This document shows positions 3,804 through 62,784 of a stretch of DNA of 64,000 nt, in pieces. Both the position numbers and the translations under genes were made by a program. The number at the start of each line of letters is the position of its first letter. Within the stretch, counting starts at the first letter, position 1. The notes beneath the pieces were generated by a model. It made no database searches. It was not told where the DNA came from and saw nothing but the letters and a program-made list of their open reading frames with translations. This stretch comes from Syntrophomonas sp. (lineage in GTDB: Bacteria > Bacillota > Syntrophomonadia > Syntrophomonadales > Syntrophomonadaceae): assembly GCA_016841875.1 (NCBI GenBank), contig JAENYG010000006.1:62001-126000 (forward strand), given 5' to 3'.

Positions 3804-3834
3804 AGTGGAGGCCATCCTTTGGATAGCCTCCACT
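3804..3834 (+). terminator. terminator-like hairpin, copy 1
   Basis: AGTGGAGGC pairs with GCCTCCACT and CATCC with GGATA around a TTT loop. It is the likely end signal of the CoA-transferase transcript. The same hairpin recurs at 4037-4067, and a near-identical one (inverted context) lies at 10263-10293. Confidence 0.55.
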
Positions 3835-3838
3835 CAGA

Positions 3839-4036
3839 TTGTTGACAAAGTCAACAAGAAGGCAGACCGATGACAGGAGTGAAGATCAAGGCGCAAGAAA
3901 AGCCCGCGATTGAGGCGTACTCGGGTACGTTGATTGAGCGGGCTTCTTTATCCTTTGTGAGCTTTCGCGAACTCAAATTGTGGTCCTGTAAGGGCTTTTC
4001 GCAGTAACGCAGATATTCGCTTTTGTCATCGGTCTG
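3839..4036 (-). repeat. palindromic repeat element (full-length) with satellite mini-hairpin
   Basis: The core runs 3863-4036 and is bounded by the near-perfect inverted termini CAGACCGATGACA and TGTCATCGGTCTG. Internally it has a GCCCGC/GCGGGC stem around a GTAC-containing apex and shares long stretches with the reverse complement of 61108-61283 (AGATCAAGGC, TGAGCGGGCTTCTTTAT, TAACGCAGATATTCGC). A mini-hairpin TTGTTGAC/GTCAACAA (3839-3857) adjoins it, as in the other copies. It encodes no protein. The element lies between two copies of the same terminator hairpin. Confidence 0.75.
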
Positions 4037-4067
4037 AGTGGAGGTCATCTTTTATATAGCCTCCACT
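4037..4067 (+). terminator. terminator-like hairpin, copy 2
   Basis: AGTGGAGGT pairs with GCCTCCACT. It is a diverged duplicate of 3804-3834 on the other side of the palindromic element. Confidence 0.5.
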
Positions 4068-53405: not shown

Positions 53406-54677
53406 ATGAAATTGACCAGGAAGCTTAAATTAGGTCGCAACGACCCATGTCCGTGCGGCAGCGGCAAAAAATACAAAAATTGCTGCGGACTGATGAGTGA
53501 TATCACACCTTCATTCGATGATCCCTTCGCCCATTACAACCAGCTGGCAATATCGACCAAGCTAAAACTGGATCGTTTTTTTTCAGCTGATTTAAAGAGA
53601 CACCGTCAGGCAGTTAAATCACGTTTCACCAGGTTCAGCGTAAGTAAGAGTATCAGGCCGGAGCACGAATCGATTTTTTCGGATTGGTTGTGGTTCGATC
53701 TTGAGGACGATGAAAATGTAAGTATGGCCGGAATATATTTAGCTGAAAATCAAGATTATATGGAACTTCCGCTGCGCGAGTACTTAAAAGCCCTGGATGA
53801 TTCTTATCTGTCTGTATATCGCATAACCGGCTCTGAGGGAGTTTTACTGGATGTCACAGATATTTTTCTTGATACCAGCCATCAAGTGATAATAAAAGAG
53901 CCCCTGACTCTAAAGGAAGAAGACCCGCAAATGCTGCTGCTGGCTAGAATGGTTAGCTTGCCCCAAGCCACCCTTTTTTCCGGTATGGTTTTAATGTTGG
54001 AAAACAATCTTTTACAGGAAGAGTTTATCAAAGAGCATCTAGATTATCTTAAAGATTTATACCAGGAAGAGATTCCCCATATACTGAAAAAGTACGGAGA
54101 AATTATTTACGGCATATTTGACCATGCGGGCCAGAAAATGCTGGTCAACTTAAACGATATGCGCATTAGGCTTATAAATGAAAGTGAAAGAGAGCTGCTG
54201 CTGGAAAAATTGTTAACAGAGCAGGATTATGTCCTGCAGCATAAGACCGCAGGTTTATCCTGGTTCAAAGCAGCCGCAGAGATAGCCGGTTATTCCCGAG
54301 TAATCGTGGGAGACGATTTAGTTTTGAGCTGTTCGGATGTGCTGGAAGATGTGATAAAACATTCCAACTTTATTGACTCCATATTACCTGGTAAACCGGT
54401 ACAGGTCATTAACAGCCTGATGTTGCAGACTCCCCCTGACCCCAAGTATACATGGCTGTGGTTCATAGTGTTAAAAGACCGGGAAAGCGAAAAATGGCTC
54501 AATACTCCGCACCTGGAATTAAATGCCAAAACTCCCCAGGAAGTTTTAATGGAAGACGGAGGAGCAGAAAAAATCATAGCTATGCTGGATGATTATATGT
54601 CATCTATCGTAATAGCCGAAGAAAAAGAAGTAGTGGAGTATATTAAACTGAGGTGCCAGTCATTATTGCCGGAGTAG
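53406..54677 (+). CDS. SEC-C motif protein of unknown function
   Basis: 423 residues. An N-terminal SEC-C zinc motif [19 protein letters not shown] (10-28) like that at the end of SecA, followed by about 390 residues with no recognised domain: mixed alpha/beta, acidic. SEC-C proteins often bind zinc and ribosomes or SecB. It may be a translation- or export-linked factor. Monocistronic. Starts at ATG 53406 after AGGGGGAAT. Confidence 0.8.
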
Positions 54678-54694
54678 GTTTCAAACCTGCTCCG
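54670..54694 (+). terminator. terminator of the SEC-C gene
   Basis: CGGAGTAGGTTT pairs with AAACCTGCTCCG with one G-U. The stop codon lies in the left arm. The palindromic repeat begins exactly at its end. Confidence 0.65.
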
Positions 54695-54905
54695 CAGACC
54701 GATGACAGAAGCCCCCTTTGGGGATTACCCCGTACCGGGGCAACTGATGGATTGTAAGCAATAACACCTATAAAGGTACTTCGCAAGGGCTCACAAGTGA
54801 TAAAGAAGCCCGCTCAAACAACAACGTACTCAGCTCATATATGAAGGGCAAATAAAAGGCTTTAAGCAGATGATTCCTCTATCCGATGGGGGTCATCTTT
54901 TTGAC
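54694..54905 (+). repeat. palindromic repeat element, diverged copy
   Basis: Starts CAGACCGATGACAG as at 3863. Its centre GGGCTCACAAGTGATAAAG then AAGCCCGCTCAAAC matches the 61.2-kb copy. It ends near GTCATCTTTTTGACTTCGTC, the usual mini-hairpin region. A GC-rich CCCCGTACCGGGG hairpin is inserted. More degenerate than the other copies; only one terminator copy remains. Confidence 0.6.
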
Positions 54906-54920
54906 TTCGTCTATAATCTG

Positions 54921-55532
54921 TTATTGTTCTTCAGGTCTAACTGATTCATACTTTAGAATTTCCTGCAGGGCTTCGTTAATTTCATCTACCCCTTCACCGG
55001 TCTCCGCTGAAAAACAAATAGGCAGCTGTTCCGGTGGAACCTTTAATTCTCTTCGTATTACTGCCAGGTGTTTAGCCCTGGCCCCCCGGGATATTTTATC
55101 GGCTTTTGTAGCTACTAGCAGAACCGGTATTTCGTGATGACTGAGCCAGTCCTTCATCATTATATCGTCACTGCTGGGAGGGTGTCTTATATCAAGGATC
55201 TGCAGAACGCCCTTTAATTGCTGGCGCTGGCTTAAATAGGATTCAATCATCTTCCCCCATTTAGCTCTTTCCAGCTTGGATACTTTGGCATACCCGTAGC
55301 CAGGCAAATCTACCATATGCCATTCATCATTGAGCAGGTAGTAATTTATGGTCCTGGTCTTGCCCGGCGTAGAACTGGACTTGGCTAGTTTTTTACGGTT
55401 TACTAATTTATTGATTAAAGAAGATTTGCCTACATTGGATCTTCCCACCAATGCGATCTCAGGTAAGTCCCCTTCTGGAAGCTGTTTAATGTCTACAAAT
55501 ACTCCTTTGAATTCCGCGTTCTTTATCTTCAT
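54921..55532 (-). CDS. engB: ribosome-assembly GTPase EngB/YsxC
   Basis: 203 residues. G1 GRSNVGKS at 30-37, G3 DLPGYGYA, G4 TKADK. Acts late in 50S assembly. Classic neighbour of lonA, here separated by a threonine aldolase gene. Confidence 0.96.
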   Translation of the reverse strand: MKIKNAEFKGVFVDIKQLPEGDLPEIALVGRSNVGKSSLINKLVNRKKLAKSSSTPGKTRTINYYLLNDEWHMVDLPGYGYAKVSKLERAKWGKMIESYLSQRQQLKGVLQILDIRHPPSSDDIMMKDWLSHHEIPVLLVATKADKISRGARAKHLAVIRRELKVPPEQLPICFSAETGEGVDEINEALQEILKYESVRPEEQ

Positions 55533-59222: not shown

Positions 59223-60848
59223 TTAAACAAATGCCCTTTCCAGCACCTCTTTCAAATCATTTACGGGAATAACTTCGATATCGGAAAGATTTTCGAATAT
59301 ATTTAACCAGTTATCACTGGGAATGATTATTTGCTTAATTCCCGCCTTCCTGGCCGCATCAACTTTACTCATCACTCCCCCTACCGGTTTCACCTGGCCA
59401 TGAACTGATATTTCCCCGGTCATGGCCAGTAAGTTATAAACTGCCTGATTAGTAATAGCAGAATATATAGCGGTAGCGATGCTTACTCCTGCCGATGGAC
59501 CATCTACCGGGGTTCCTCCCGGGAAGTTGAGGTGCAGATCGTAATCAGATATTTTGAGTCCATACTCGGAACGTAATACGGTAAGAACATTTTCCACCGC
59601 ACCCCGGGCCATACTTTTACGGGTTAATTTTCTTCCCTCGGTTCCTACTTCTTCCTGATCAATAACCCCGGTTACAATCCAACTGCCGGTGCCTTTATCG
59701 ACCGGAATTGCTTTAGCTTCAACTTCGATCAGCATTCCCACATTGGCCCCGTATACCGCTAGACCGTTTACAACTCCTACAGCCGGGTTTTCTTTAGGTC
59801 GAACTTCGGCCCGAGGCGAAAAACGGCCATTATTTAAAACCTTTTCTATTGTTTCCAGGGTTATCCGGGACGAATGCTCCACCTGGGCAATTCCTGCCGC
59901 CAATTGTACGATGTTGACAGCTTCACGACCATTCCCAGCATATTTCACTATCTCATTAACCGCATCTTCAAATACCTCTATGCCAACCTTGTTGATTGCA
60001 TTTATCACAATTGATTTTATGTCCTCTTTATCCAGGGGTTTAAAAAACACCTCCATACACCTGGAACGAAGCGGGGGAGATAGTTCGTTCGGCATCCTGG
60101 TAGTAGCTCCTACCAATCGAAAATCAGCCGGCAGACCATTTTGAAATATATCGTGTATATGACCCGGAATATTTTTATCATTTTCGCTATAATAGGCACT
60201 CTCCAGCAGAACTTTTCGATCCTCCAGTACTTTTAACAGTTTATTCATCTGCATGGGATGCAGTTCGCCGATTTCGTCAACAAACAATACCCCTCCATGT
60301 GCTTTGGTGCATGCACCTGGTTTGGGTTGAGGTATCCCTGCCGATCCCATGGACCCTGCTCCCTGGTAAATAGGATCGTGTACCGACCCAATCAAAGGAT
60401 CAGCAATATTTCTTTCATCAAAACGGGAGATAGATGCGTCAATTTCCACAAATTTGGCGTCTTTGTTAAAGGGTGACATTTCCACCCGCCTGGCCTCTTC
60501 CAGAACTAATCTGGCCGCCGCGGTTTTCCCAACCCCGGGAGGACCATAGATTATGACATGCTGAGGATTGGGCCCGCACAGAGCAGCACGGAGCAGGTCC
60601 ACCCCCTCCTCCTGCCCGATGACATCCTTCATGTCTGCAGGACGAGTCAGACTGGACAAAGGTTCGGTAAGCCTAACATTACGCATTTCTTTTAATTTAC
60701 CGTTTTCTTTCTCAGACTCCCTTACCAGGCCATGTTTTTTAGTCTGCTGGTTCTTTAAGAGATTCCAAAAATAAACCCCTATTACTATTGCAAAAAATAA
60801 TTGTACCATATACAAGATAGGACCATAATTCATGAATATATTGTTCAT
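59223..60848 (-). CDS. lonB: ATP-dependent protease LonB (membrane-anchored type)
   Basis: 541 residues. One N-terminal membrane helix (YMVQLFFAIVIGVYFW), an AAA+ domain ([13 protein letters not shown]) and a Lon-type protease domain (VDGPSAGVSIATAI). In Bacillus, LonB is forespore-specific. I start at ATG 60848 with AAAGGA nine bases upstream. Between lonA and clpX, as in Bacillus. Confidence 0.95.
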   Translation of the reverse strand: MNNIFMNYGPILYMVQLFFAIVIGVYFWNLLKNQQTKKHGLVRESEKENGKLKEMRNVRLTEPLSSLTRPADMKDVIGQEEGVDLLRAALCGPNPQHVIIYGPPGVGKTAAARLVLEEARRVEMSPFNKDAKFVEIDASISRFDERNIADPLIGSVHDPIYQGAGSMGSAGIPQPKPGACTKAHGGVLFVDEIGELHPMQMNKLLKVLEDRKVLLESAYYSENDKNIPGHIHDIFQNGLPADFRLVGATTRMPNELSPPLRSRCMEVFFKPLDKEDIKSIVINAINKVGIEVFEDAVNEIVKYAGNGREAVNIVQLAAGIAQVEHSSRITLETIEKVLNNGRFSPRAEVRPKENPAVGVVNGLAVYGANVGMLIEVEAKAIPVDKGTGSWIVTGVIDQEEVGTEGRKLTRKSMARGAVENVLTVLRSEYGLKISDYDLHLNFPGGTPVDGPSAGVSIATAIYSAITNQAVYNLLAMTGEISVHGQVKPVGGVMSKVDAARKAGIKQIIIPSDNWLNIFENLSDIEVIPVNDLKEVLERAFV

Positions 60849-61082
60849 GTACTCTTTCCTTTCTCTGCAGGTTGGTTCCGGCAGCAAACCGCCGCTGTAG
60901 GCAGAGGGTACCAACTATAAATACAGCTAGGTTTATATTCTACCCCATTTTAAGCGGCTCTATTGTTATGGACCCGATAGGATTTTCTAAATCTCATATG
61001 AGATGACGTTTATGAGAATTATAGACTATTGATTATATTATTCCCTGCAAAGTCAGTTGAATAAGGTAAAATGAGCAGTAAA

Positions 61083-61106
61083 AAAAGGCAGTTTTCACTG
61101 CCTTTT
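61083..61106 (-). terminator. terminator hairpin, distal copy
   Basis: AAAAGGCAG pairs with CTGCCTTTT, loop TTTTCA. Same hairpin as at 61485-61510. Confidence 0.65.
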
Positions 61107-61107
61107 C

Positions 61108-61307
61108 CAGACTAATGACAACGGCGAATATCTGCGTTATTTCAAAGAGCCCTTTACAGGACTACAATTTGAGGTTCGACCAGGCTCACAAAAAATAAAG
61201 AAGCCCGCTCAATCATCGTACTTAGGTACGATTCAATCCTGGTCTCTTTTCATGCCTTGATCTTCACCGTTGTCATCGGTCTGACATCTTGCCGACTTCG
61301 TCGGCAA
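61108..61307 (+). repeat. palindromic repeat element, full-length copy
   Basis: Core 61108-61283 has termini CAGACTAATGACAACGG and CCGTTGTCATCGGTCTG. The mini-hairpin TTGCCGAC/GTCGGCAA (61289-61307) follows. It matches the reverse complement of the 3.9-kb copy along its length. Confidence 0.75.
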
Positions 61308-61312
61308 TATAC

Positions 61313-61336
61313 AAAAGCCACTTTTCACTGCCTTTT
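61313..61336 (-). terminator. terminator hairpin, middle degenerate copy
   Basis: AAAAGCCACTTTTCACTGCC then TTTT: a mutated duplicate of the flanking hairpins; the stem is interrupted. Confidence 0.4.
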
Positions 61337-61337
61337 C

Positions 61338-61484
61338 CAGACCTATGTCAACAGCGAATATCTGCGTTATTTCAAAGAGACCACTCAATCATCGTACTTA
61401 GGTACGATTCAATCCTGGTCTCTTTTCATGCCTTGATCTTCACTGTTCTCATAGGTCTGACATATTGCCTTTGTCGGCAATATG
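61338..61484 (+). repeat. palindromic repeat element, internally deleted copy
   Basis: Core 61338-61459 with termini CAGACCTATG and CATAGGTCTG. It lacks about 55 internal bases (the GAAGCCCGC...CCCTTTAC part) of the preceding copy. Terminal changes are paired: ACAG/CTGT here versus ACGG/CCGT in 61108-61283. Mini-hairpin CATATTGCC/GGCAATATG at 61461-61484. Confidence 0.75.
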
Positions 61485-61510
61485 AAAAAGGCAGTTTTCA
61501 CTGCCTTTTT
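61485..61510 (-). terminator. terminator of clpX
   Basis: AAAAAGGCAG pairs perfectly with CTGCCTTTTT, 24 bases after the clpX stop. Copied twice further downstream. Confidence 0.8.
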
Positions 61511-61533
61511 GAAGTTCAATTGATTGTTTATTA

Positions 61534-62784
61534 TTAATTTACTCTCCGTCTGGCATCAACAGTTACCAGCAGCGGTTTTTCCTTCTTGGCAATCACATCT
61601 CTGGTTACTAGCACTTTCGTAATATCTATGCGGGAAGGTACCTCATACATAACTTCCAGCATGACATCTTCAATGATAGCCCTGAGCCCCCGGGCCCCGG
61701 TATTCCTGCGCAGTGCCTCTTCAGCAATTGCGTCCAGAGCGTCATCCATAAATTCCAGGTCTACTCCATCTAGTTCCAATAATTTCTTATATTGTTTCAC
61801 CAGAGCATTCCTGGGTTCGGTGAGTATTTTTATCAAGGTTTCCTTATCCAGAGCATCCAGAGTTACTATTATCGGTACTCTGCCTACAAATTCAGGAATA
61901 AGCCCATAGCGCAGAAGATCCTGAGGTAATATCATTTCCAGGATTTCTCCTATTTTCTTTTCCTCTTTGGCTTTGATGTCTGCACCAAAACCCATAACCT
62001 TTTGCCCTATGCGGTTTTGTATGATCTTATCGATACCTTCAAAGGCTCCTCCACAGATAAAAAGGATGTTGCTGGTATCTATTTGTATGAACTCCTGATG
62101 AGGATGTTTTCTTCCACCCTGAGGAGGAACACTGGCTACCGTACCTTCCAATATCTTAAGCAGAGCCTGCTGTACGCCCTCGCCGGAAACGTCTCTGGTG
62201 ATGCTTGGATTATCGGTCTTACGTGCTATCTTATCAATTTCATCGATATATACGATACCTTTTTCGGCCTTTTCGATATCATAATCAGCAGCCTGGATAA
62301 GTTTCAAAAGAATATTCTCAACATCTTCTCCCACATAACCAGCCTCTGTAAGTGAGGTGGCATCTGCAATAGCAAAAGGCACATTCAATATTCTGGCTAG
62401 AGTCTGGGCCAGTAGCGTCTTTCCACTTCCAGTCGGGCCCAGCATCATGATGTTGCTTTTCTGTAGTTCTACATCATCCAGTTTCATGCCCAGATTGATT
62501 CTTTTGTAATGATTGTAAACTGCAACCGCGAGAGATTTTTTGGCAGTATCCTGACCAATTACATAATCATCCAGAGTTTCCCTGATTTCCAGGGGCTTAG
62601 GAATGTCACCCAGTTCCAGACCAAGATCTTCCGCTAGTTCTTCCTCAATTATCTCATTGCATAGTTCGATGCATTCATCACAAATATAAACACCTGGGCC
62701 AGCCACCAGCTTTTTTACCTGATCCTGGGTTTTTCCACAGAATGAACACTTTAATTGTCCTTTATCGTCCCCGTATTTATGCAT
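61534..62784 (-). CDS. clpX: ClpX unfoldase
   Basis: 416 residues. N-terminal zinc domain C13/C16/C35/C38, AAA+ with GPTGSGKT at 116-123, and an IGF-type ClpP-binding loop region ([12 protein letters not shown]). Unfolds substrates for ClpP, encoded upstream. ATG after GAGGGGTGA. Confidence 0.97.

Follow-up and report, generated by a model that had tools for sequence, protein, structure and literature searches.

The region between clpX and lonB in a Syntrophomonas sp. genome raises the question of how a gene can come to be followed by several copies of one terminator with palindromic DNA between them. In the 64,000-nucleotide stretch analysed here (contig JAENYG010000006.1, positions 62,001 to 126,000; hereafter the window), the clpX terminator hairpin occurs in three direct copies that enclose two elements having in common their termini (CAGAC.../...GTCTG), an inverted repeat of 25 bp and, at the right end, a small hairpin (Table 1). 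This arrangement had been described in an earlier annotation made from the DNA letters (the sequence-only reading), and we could reproduce it with all coordinates agreeing to within one or two bases. The two elements are 93% identical along a 92-nt stretch and the first exceeds the second by an internal segment of ~54 nt. The first is also the orthologue of the single element present at this site in the genome G002.

Table 1. Coordinates of the clpX–lonB array and of further element copies in the window
Feature	Position	Strand	Remarks
clpX, gene whose terminator was the target	61534..62784	-	assigned from translated sequence and clpP/tig/lon neighbourhood
clpX-proximal clpX terminator hairpin	61485..61510	-	AAAAAGGCAGTGAAAACTGCCTTTTT on - strand; single ancestral copy in ~20 related genera
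Element copy 2 (short form)	61338..61484	+	palindromic body 61338-61459; right-end small hairpin 61465-61484; sister of copy 1 (86/92)
Middle clpX terminator copy	61312..61337	-	degenerate (GCCA.../...TGCC)
Element copy 1 (long form)	61108..61311	+	palindromic body 61108-61283; right-end hairpin 61289-61309
Distal clpX terminator copy	61082..61107	-	native T-tract (TTTTTTTACTG) and downstream sequence retained
lonB-type protease gene, downstream of array	59223..60914	-	
Terminator copy beside second intact element	3804..3834	.	31-bp duplication
Second intact element (long form, opposite orientation)	3835..4036	-	
Other terminator copy of the 31-bp pair	4037..4067	.	
Terminator hairpin adjoining decayed element	54670..54694	+	
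Decayed one-sided element	54695..54970	+	left end intact; right boundary approximate

A genome-wide search, as the sequence-only reading had proposed, revealed ~45 or more copies of the element in the host genome (54 matches with the array as query and 95 matching pieces with a 151-nt consensus). Its distribution is patchy, with carriers among 19 of 61 relatives and 26 of the 63 genomes of the class, while no copy was found in 15 sampled genomes from other families of the phylum and no match in plasmid and phage collections. The element measures ~150 bp (variants of 80-390 bp) and consists of a long imperfect palindrome and a small right-end hairpin between the ends CAG...CTG; it has no coding capacity and no open reading frame spans it. 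The consensus of 37 short copies reads CAG[AG]CCGATGACA..AAGCGAATATCTGCGTTATTTCAAAAAGCCCGCTCAATCAACGTACTCAGGTACGCCTCAATCGCGGGC...CATGCCTTGATCTTC.CTTCTGTCATCGG[CT]CTG, followed by the right tail GCATCTTGCCGACTTTGTCGACAA.CTG. Its left end (CAGRCCGATGACA) and inverted right end (CAGRTTGTCGACA) agree at 9 of 13 positions; on the right side, the 25-bp inverted repeat occupies a sub-terminal position. Such an element has features of a MITE: it is short (<600 bp), multicopy and non-coding, with a target-site duplication and empty sites in relatives. A search of Rfam with the region 60900-61700 of the window returned only one match, at chance level. RNAalifold attributed a covariation term of only -0.54 kcal/mol to the 37-copy alignment, and the double changes seen in seven pairs could equally stem from palindrome correction, so that we do not claim an RNA function.

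Several forms exist beside the typical one. A second subfamily with the ends CAGACCGTCAAAAAAGG...CCTTTTTTGCTCGCTCTG (L067, L081, L085, L134, L221 and L289) occupies the same kind of target, and duplicated terminators are seen at L085 and L221. Long forms (L008, L010, L021, L048, L054, L101 and L235) contain nested palindromic modules, such as CCTTACAGGACCACAATTTGAGTTCGCGAAAGCTCACAAAGGATAAAGAAG and GATGTACCTTCATTTCATTGCGGTAC, which are also present elsewhere. Among orthologous copies, the internal content changes fast and the junction between left end and terminator stays.

Both ends could be located in 65 copies from the host and related genomes, and 52 of them are flanked by a strong direct repeat. 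These repeats are locus-specific intrinsic terminators (for example AGCCGTGGGCTGGACCCACGGCT, AACCCCCTGTTTTGGCAGGGGGTT and AAAGGAGCCTTTCGGCTCCTTT) that have structure but not sequence in common. The alignment score between left and right flanks has a median of 41 versus 13.4 for swapped flanks, and the flank repeat of each of the 52 positive copies exceeds every swapped-flank control. Since it recurs with a different hairpin at 52 of the 65 scorable copies, the hairpin-element-hairpin pattern seen at clpX is far above chance. Orientation is moderately biased, as the right-end hairpin points toward the upstream gene at 27 sites and away from it at 9 (our own count).

The position of the cut could be deduced from these repeats, which begin directly after the last CTG of the element and stop directly before its first CAG. 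The element's own ends were taken as the boundaries of the duplication and the palindrome centre was given by a symmetry measure, used instead of a whole-window RNA fold of the reconstructed sites, whose spurious outer pairs made it misleading for locating stem feet. The duplicated segment corresponds to the terminator palindrome and ranges from 18 to 33 bp according to the locus (43 bp in one case), with a mode at 22-24 bp. Its centre coincides with that of the palindrome in 34 of the 46 measured copies and lies within 2 nt of it in 39. Beyond the duplicated segment, no pairing is added to the stem in 21 of 36 clean cases, and 1-6 bp more are found in the other 15. The hairpin is thus cut symmetrically, in most but not all cases at the very foot of its stem; "foot of the stem" is only an approximate description because the stem outruns the duplicated segment in 15 of 36 cases.

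Empty sites were looked for in congeners by using the joined C-terminal segments of upstream genes as query and inspecting the intergenic regions. At ten or more sites, species that lack the element display one terminator of matching sequence at the same position, as illustrated by AAACCTATCGCAGTAAATAAACCGGGCAGCAGTCCGGTTTATCGTATC in G002 versus AAACCGGGCAGCAGTCCGGTTT-element-AAACCGGGCAGCAGTCCGGTTT in the host. Such sites were found behind a holin-like gene (G002, G003), asp23 (G003, G004), ireB-ruvX (G001, G003, G004), the L031 gene (G001), the L113 gene (G000), the L118 gene (G000, G001) and a gdhA-like gene (G001, G000), as well as at clpC-radA and the L010 gene (G003, G004 for both). For clpX, the interval up to the next gene holds a single hairpin (typically GGAAAAGGTAGCGTAAGCTACCTTTTTTTACT) and no element in ~20 genera of the family. 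In contrast, no fewer than two clpX hairpins (two or three) are present in each of the five host-genus genomes, the distal one retaining the native T-tract; in G003 and G004, both hairpins are still present and the element has decayed past recognition. These single-hairpin empty sites in relatives indicate that the hairpins are the host genes' own and were duplicated on insertion. The comparison of occupied and empty sites shows that insertion turns one pre-existing terminator into a pair of direct copies with the element between them. The sequence-only reading had already attributed the hairpin to clpX and proposed a hairpin-directed long target duplication. Both ideas are borne out by the single-terminator sites that it had suggested looking for, by the native context of the distal copy, and by the same outcome at ten or more other loci; homologous loci, which could have revealed the hairpins as parts of the element, instead spoke for clpX ownership.

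The same terminators are targeted repeatedly, in independent events. Sister species carry the element in opposite orientations at the same terminator, both for L054 (G000) versus L111 (G002) and for L087 (G000) versus L058/L077. The clpC-radA terminator is occupied by one subfamily in G000 and G002 and by another (CAGACCGTCAAAAAAAGG...) in G001, and is empty in G003 and G004. In G073, which belongs to another genus, a copy of the CAGACCGTCAAAAAAAGG... subfamily is located just behind the clpX terminator.

The two clpX elements themselves probably have a different history from the one first put forward, in which each was a separate arrival. They are mutually closest relatives (86 of 92 positions identical, against 75/92 for the next-best copy in the case of copy 2 and 77/92 in that of copy 1) and have in common substitutions absent from the other aligned copies (ATCGTACCTAAGTACGAT replacing GGCGTACCTGAGTACGTT). 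A single element, of the long form, is found at clpX in G001 and in G002, that of G002 also displaying the ATCGTACCTAAGTACGAT-type changes, and identical tandem units of element plus terminator occur at other loci (L002, L003, L022 and L025). Because the copies are sisters, G001 and G002 have a single element and tandem units exist elsewhere, the second clpX element is best read as the probable product of a tandem duplication of element and terminator, after which an internal segment was deleted; the sister relationship and the single element of G001 and G002 disfavour two separate arrivals. Tandem units of this kind may result from later recombination between flanking hairpins.

Other copies have lost parts, and we treat them as decay. 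In at least ten one-sided copies (L008, L010, L052, L104, L048, L121, L211, L214, L215 and others), the left end adjoins a terminator, and the right-end hairpin and the terminator next to it are missing; the loss is often on the right-end side. Those at clpC-radA go back to old insertions and have lost their other half. The window contains a decayed one-sided copy at 54670-54970, behind the terminator of a gene for a SEC-C-motif protein and converging on engB. Reverse remnants made of a terminator and the small right-end hairpin only (L152 in G000:C72, L153 in G002:C34 and L150 in G000:C44) are apparent footprints left after loss of the element body.

How could a whole terminator be copied during insertion? 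We favour, with a probability of about 0.6, a non-autonomous MITE-like family mobilized by a trans-acting transposase that would recognize the terminator extruded as a cruciform. The element ends would be joined to the 5' feet of the cruciform, which are 18-33 bp apart on linear DNA and would be neighbours at the four-way junction. Gap filling would then copy the whole stem-loop and leave a hairpin on both sides of the element. Since upstream gene and element would both end up with a terminator, the insertion may be nearly harmless. A fixed stagger is disfavoured because the duplicated segment shares its centre with the palindrome and differs in length between loci. We count against the cruciform model the at least ten copies with a terminator on one side only, for which it offers nothing but later loss.

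Alternative explanations were weighed against the same data. That the hairpins belong to the element and travel along with it would be in line with their presence at the borders of every intact copy, but they differ wholly among loci, and each matches what relatives have at the corresponding empty site, which leaves virtually no room for this view. Duplication of the hairpin after insertion, through slipped replication or unequal exchange and not by the insertion enzyme, is also very unlikely: the tandem arrays with identical units must form in this way, yet one hairpin per end at dozens of unrelated loci, cut precisely at the element termini, would be left unexplained. Even less probable is a Cas1-like integrase that duplicates a whole palindromic repeat per integration, as in CRISPR adaptation or casposons. 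Its outcome would be equal, with a palindrome of 22-33 bp duplicated per insert and arrays alternating unit and hairpin; however, there is no sequence-specific leader or repeat here, and inserts of 80-390 bp are found at many unrelated sites.

Two readings that involve other enzyme classes deserve somewhat more credit, even if both are unlikely. In an RNA- or ssDNA-mediated integration, a reverse transcriptase or an HUH/RAYT enzyme could insert the folded element next to the terminator hairpin, the second hairpin copy arising from second-strand repair. In favour of this are the strong folding of the element, some bias in how it is oriented toward the upstream gene (27 sites against 9), the eight RAYT-like Y1 genes of G000 and the apparent group II intron lying in this genome after a terminator that the element uses in G002, as group IIC introns home to terminators. 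However, insertions of group IIC introns and of IS200/REP elements leave no target duplication, both orientations of the element occur at the same terminator, and Y1 genes (PF01797) are missing from G009 and G037, which carry copies, and found in G007 and G025, which carry none, a mismatch in distribution for which we rejected them as the source. Just a shade less probable is a DDE transposase of the IS1202/IS481 kind, acting on linear DNA with a long fixed stagger (15-29 bp) and a preference for palindromic or terminator regions. Members of the IS1202 group, whose target is not known, do make duplications of this length (PMC10132070, PMC10045372), and the modal duplication of 22-24 bp falls in that range. 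Nevertheless, the size of the duplication follows that of the hairpin (18 to 33 bp) and its centre stays on the hairpin, and the element ends in CAG...CTG instead of TGT...ACA.

Returning to a transposase that would act in trans on a cruciform, the sequence-only reading had expected an enzyme gene with matching termini elsewhere. The five genomes searched (G000, G001, G002, G035 and G014) yielded neither a transposase nor an autonomous relative bounded by matching ends at a distance of 0.6-3 kb, although such a partner may have diverged, been lost or lie elsewhere; a scan of the loci examined gave no hairpin pairs 0.6-3.8 kb apart as expected for autonomous elements with the same insertion mode. 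Several of these genomes contain IS1182-type transposases, among them a group with the ends CAG[AG]CTGTGTGAAAA, which share only CAGRYYG with the element ends CAG[AG]CCGATGACA and CAG[AG]TTGTCGACA. The resident copies that we examined lie inside palindromes, with duplications of 3-9 bp where readable and not of whole hairpins. In addition, genes of this type are abundant in the S. wolfei-like G025, which has no element copies, and undetected in the copy-bearing G014 and G027. Distribution and insertion mode thus both speak against these genes (PF05598, PF13751) as the source. An IS1182-like enzyme is still, with low confidence, the likeliest class. A transposase outside the described IS families that works by a distinct, structure-directed chemistry, takes a cruciform as target and turns its stem-loop into the target-site duplication is a tentative idea that we hold to be possible but doubtful; if true, it would be the DNA-transposon counterpart of CRISPR repeat duplication.

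Compared with known systems, the element resembles bacterial MITEs (RUP, Chunjie, QMITE, ERIC) in being short, non-coding, palindromic, multicopy and intergenic, with a short terminal inverted similarity, target duplications and no need for an autonomous copy nearby. The target duplications of known MITEs amount to a few bp (often TA, or as many as ~10), whereas an entire terminator of 18-33 bp is duplicated here. Insertion at intrinsic terminators is a trait of group IIC introns, one of them apparently at a shared target in G000; these are retroelements, much larger than the present element and with a catalytic RNA, and insert 3' of the hairpin without target duplication. REP/BIME with RAYT, SPRITE and BOX are likewise palindromic intergenic repeats, some of them linked to terminator-like sequences, but they lack target duplication, and our element is devoid of GTAG-type tags and mismatched in distribution with Y1 genes. 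The IS1202 group of the IS481 family resembles the element in having duplications in the range of 15-29 bp (PMC10132070, PMC10045372), but differs in their discrete fixed lengths, in having no reported hairpin target and in its TG(T)...(A)CA ends.

The closest parallel comes from IS1272, an element of the IS1182 family with a DDE transposase, which inserts at terminator hairpins irrespective of their sequence (PMC4923244, PMC5678879). IS1272 and TnSha1 share with our element the use of inverted-repeat targets, including terminators, with no primary sequence preference, and the repeated targeting of one hairpin in both orientations. TnSha1 removes the stem-loop as IS1272 does, and terminators are targeted in both orientations (Furi et al. 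2016, PMC4923244). Unlike the element described here, which duplicates the whole stem-loop and encodes nothing, IS1272 removes all or part of it without duplication and has a transposase of ~550 aa (548-aa form) (PMC5678879). Duplication of the whole stem-loop was drawn for IS1272 as a hypothetical alternative branch ("6b", pathway b) by Wan et al. 2017 (PMC5678879), and our family looks like this missing branch of their stem-loop transposition model. We found no earlier report of terminator-duplicating MITEs in the open-access papers that we covered, and what is new here by comparison with these is a MITE whose insertion is directed by structure and duplicates the whole terminator.

Copying a whole terminator makes for an almost harmless landing site, as the gene retains its stop signal and the element acquires one. 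Dozens of natural examples are thereby available for an outcome drawn only hypothetically by the IS1272 authors. They also provide a testable claim, namely that terminators in the chromosome form cruciforms in vivo and that a transposase recognizes them by their shape. If the enzyme is found, it might allow sequence-independent insertion of DNA behind genes.

A few further observations concern palindromes and terminators in the same bacteria. In other genera, palindromic bodies form head-to-tail arrays (L082 in G024:C227, L083 in G027:C26, and G068:C128) whose units have neither the small right-end hairpin nor clear terminators between them. Another palindrome family, whose core is GGGACGGTTC/GAACCGTCCC, harbours IS1182-type transposons, which show either 3-9 bp duplications close to the palindrome centre or no duplication (L189, L191, L192, L196-L200 and L207 in G000, G002, G005, G008, G025, G028 and G033); these insertions represent further palindrome targeting. 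Finally, an apparent group II intron (GTGAAAGTCCCTAACACACCC...) directly follows the gdhA-like terminator at L145 (G000:C32:18800-20000), which is the target of the palindromic element in G002 (L115), so that two unrelated mobile elements share one target.
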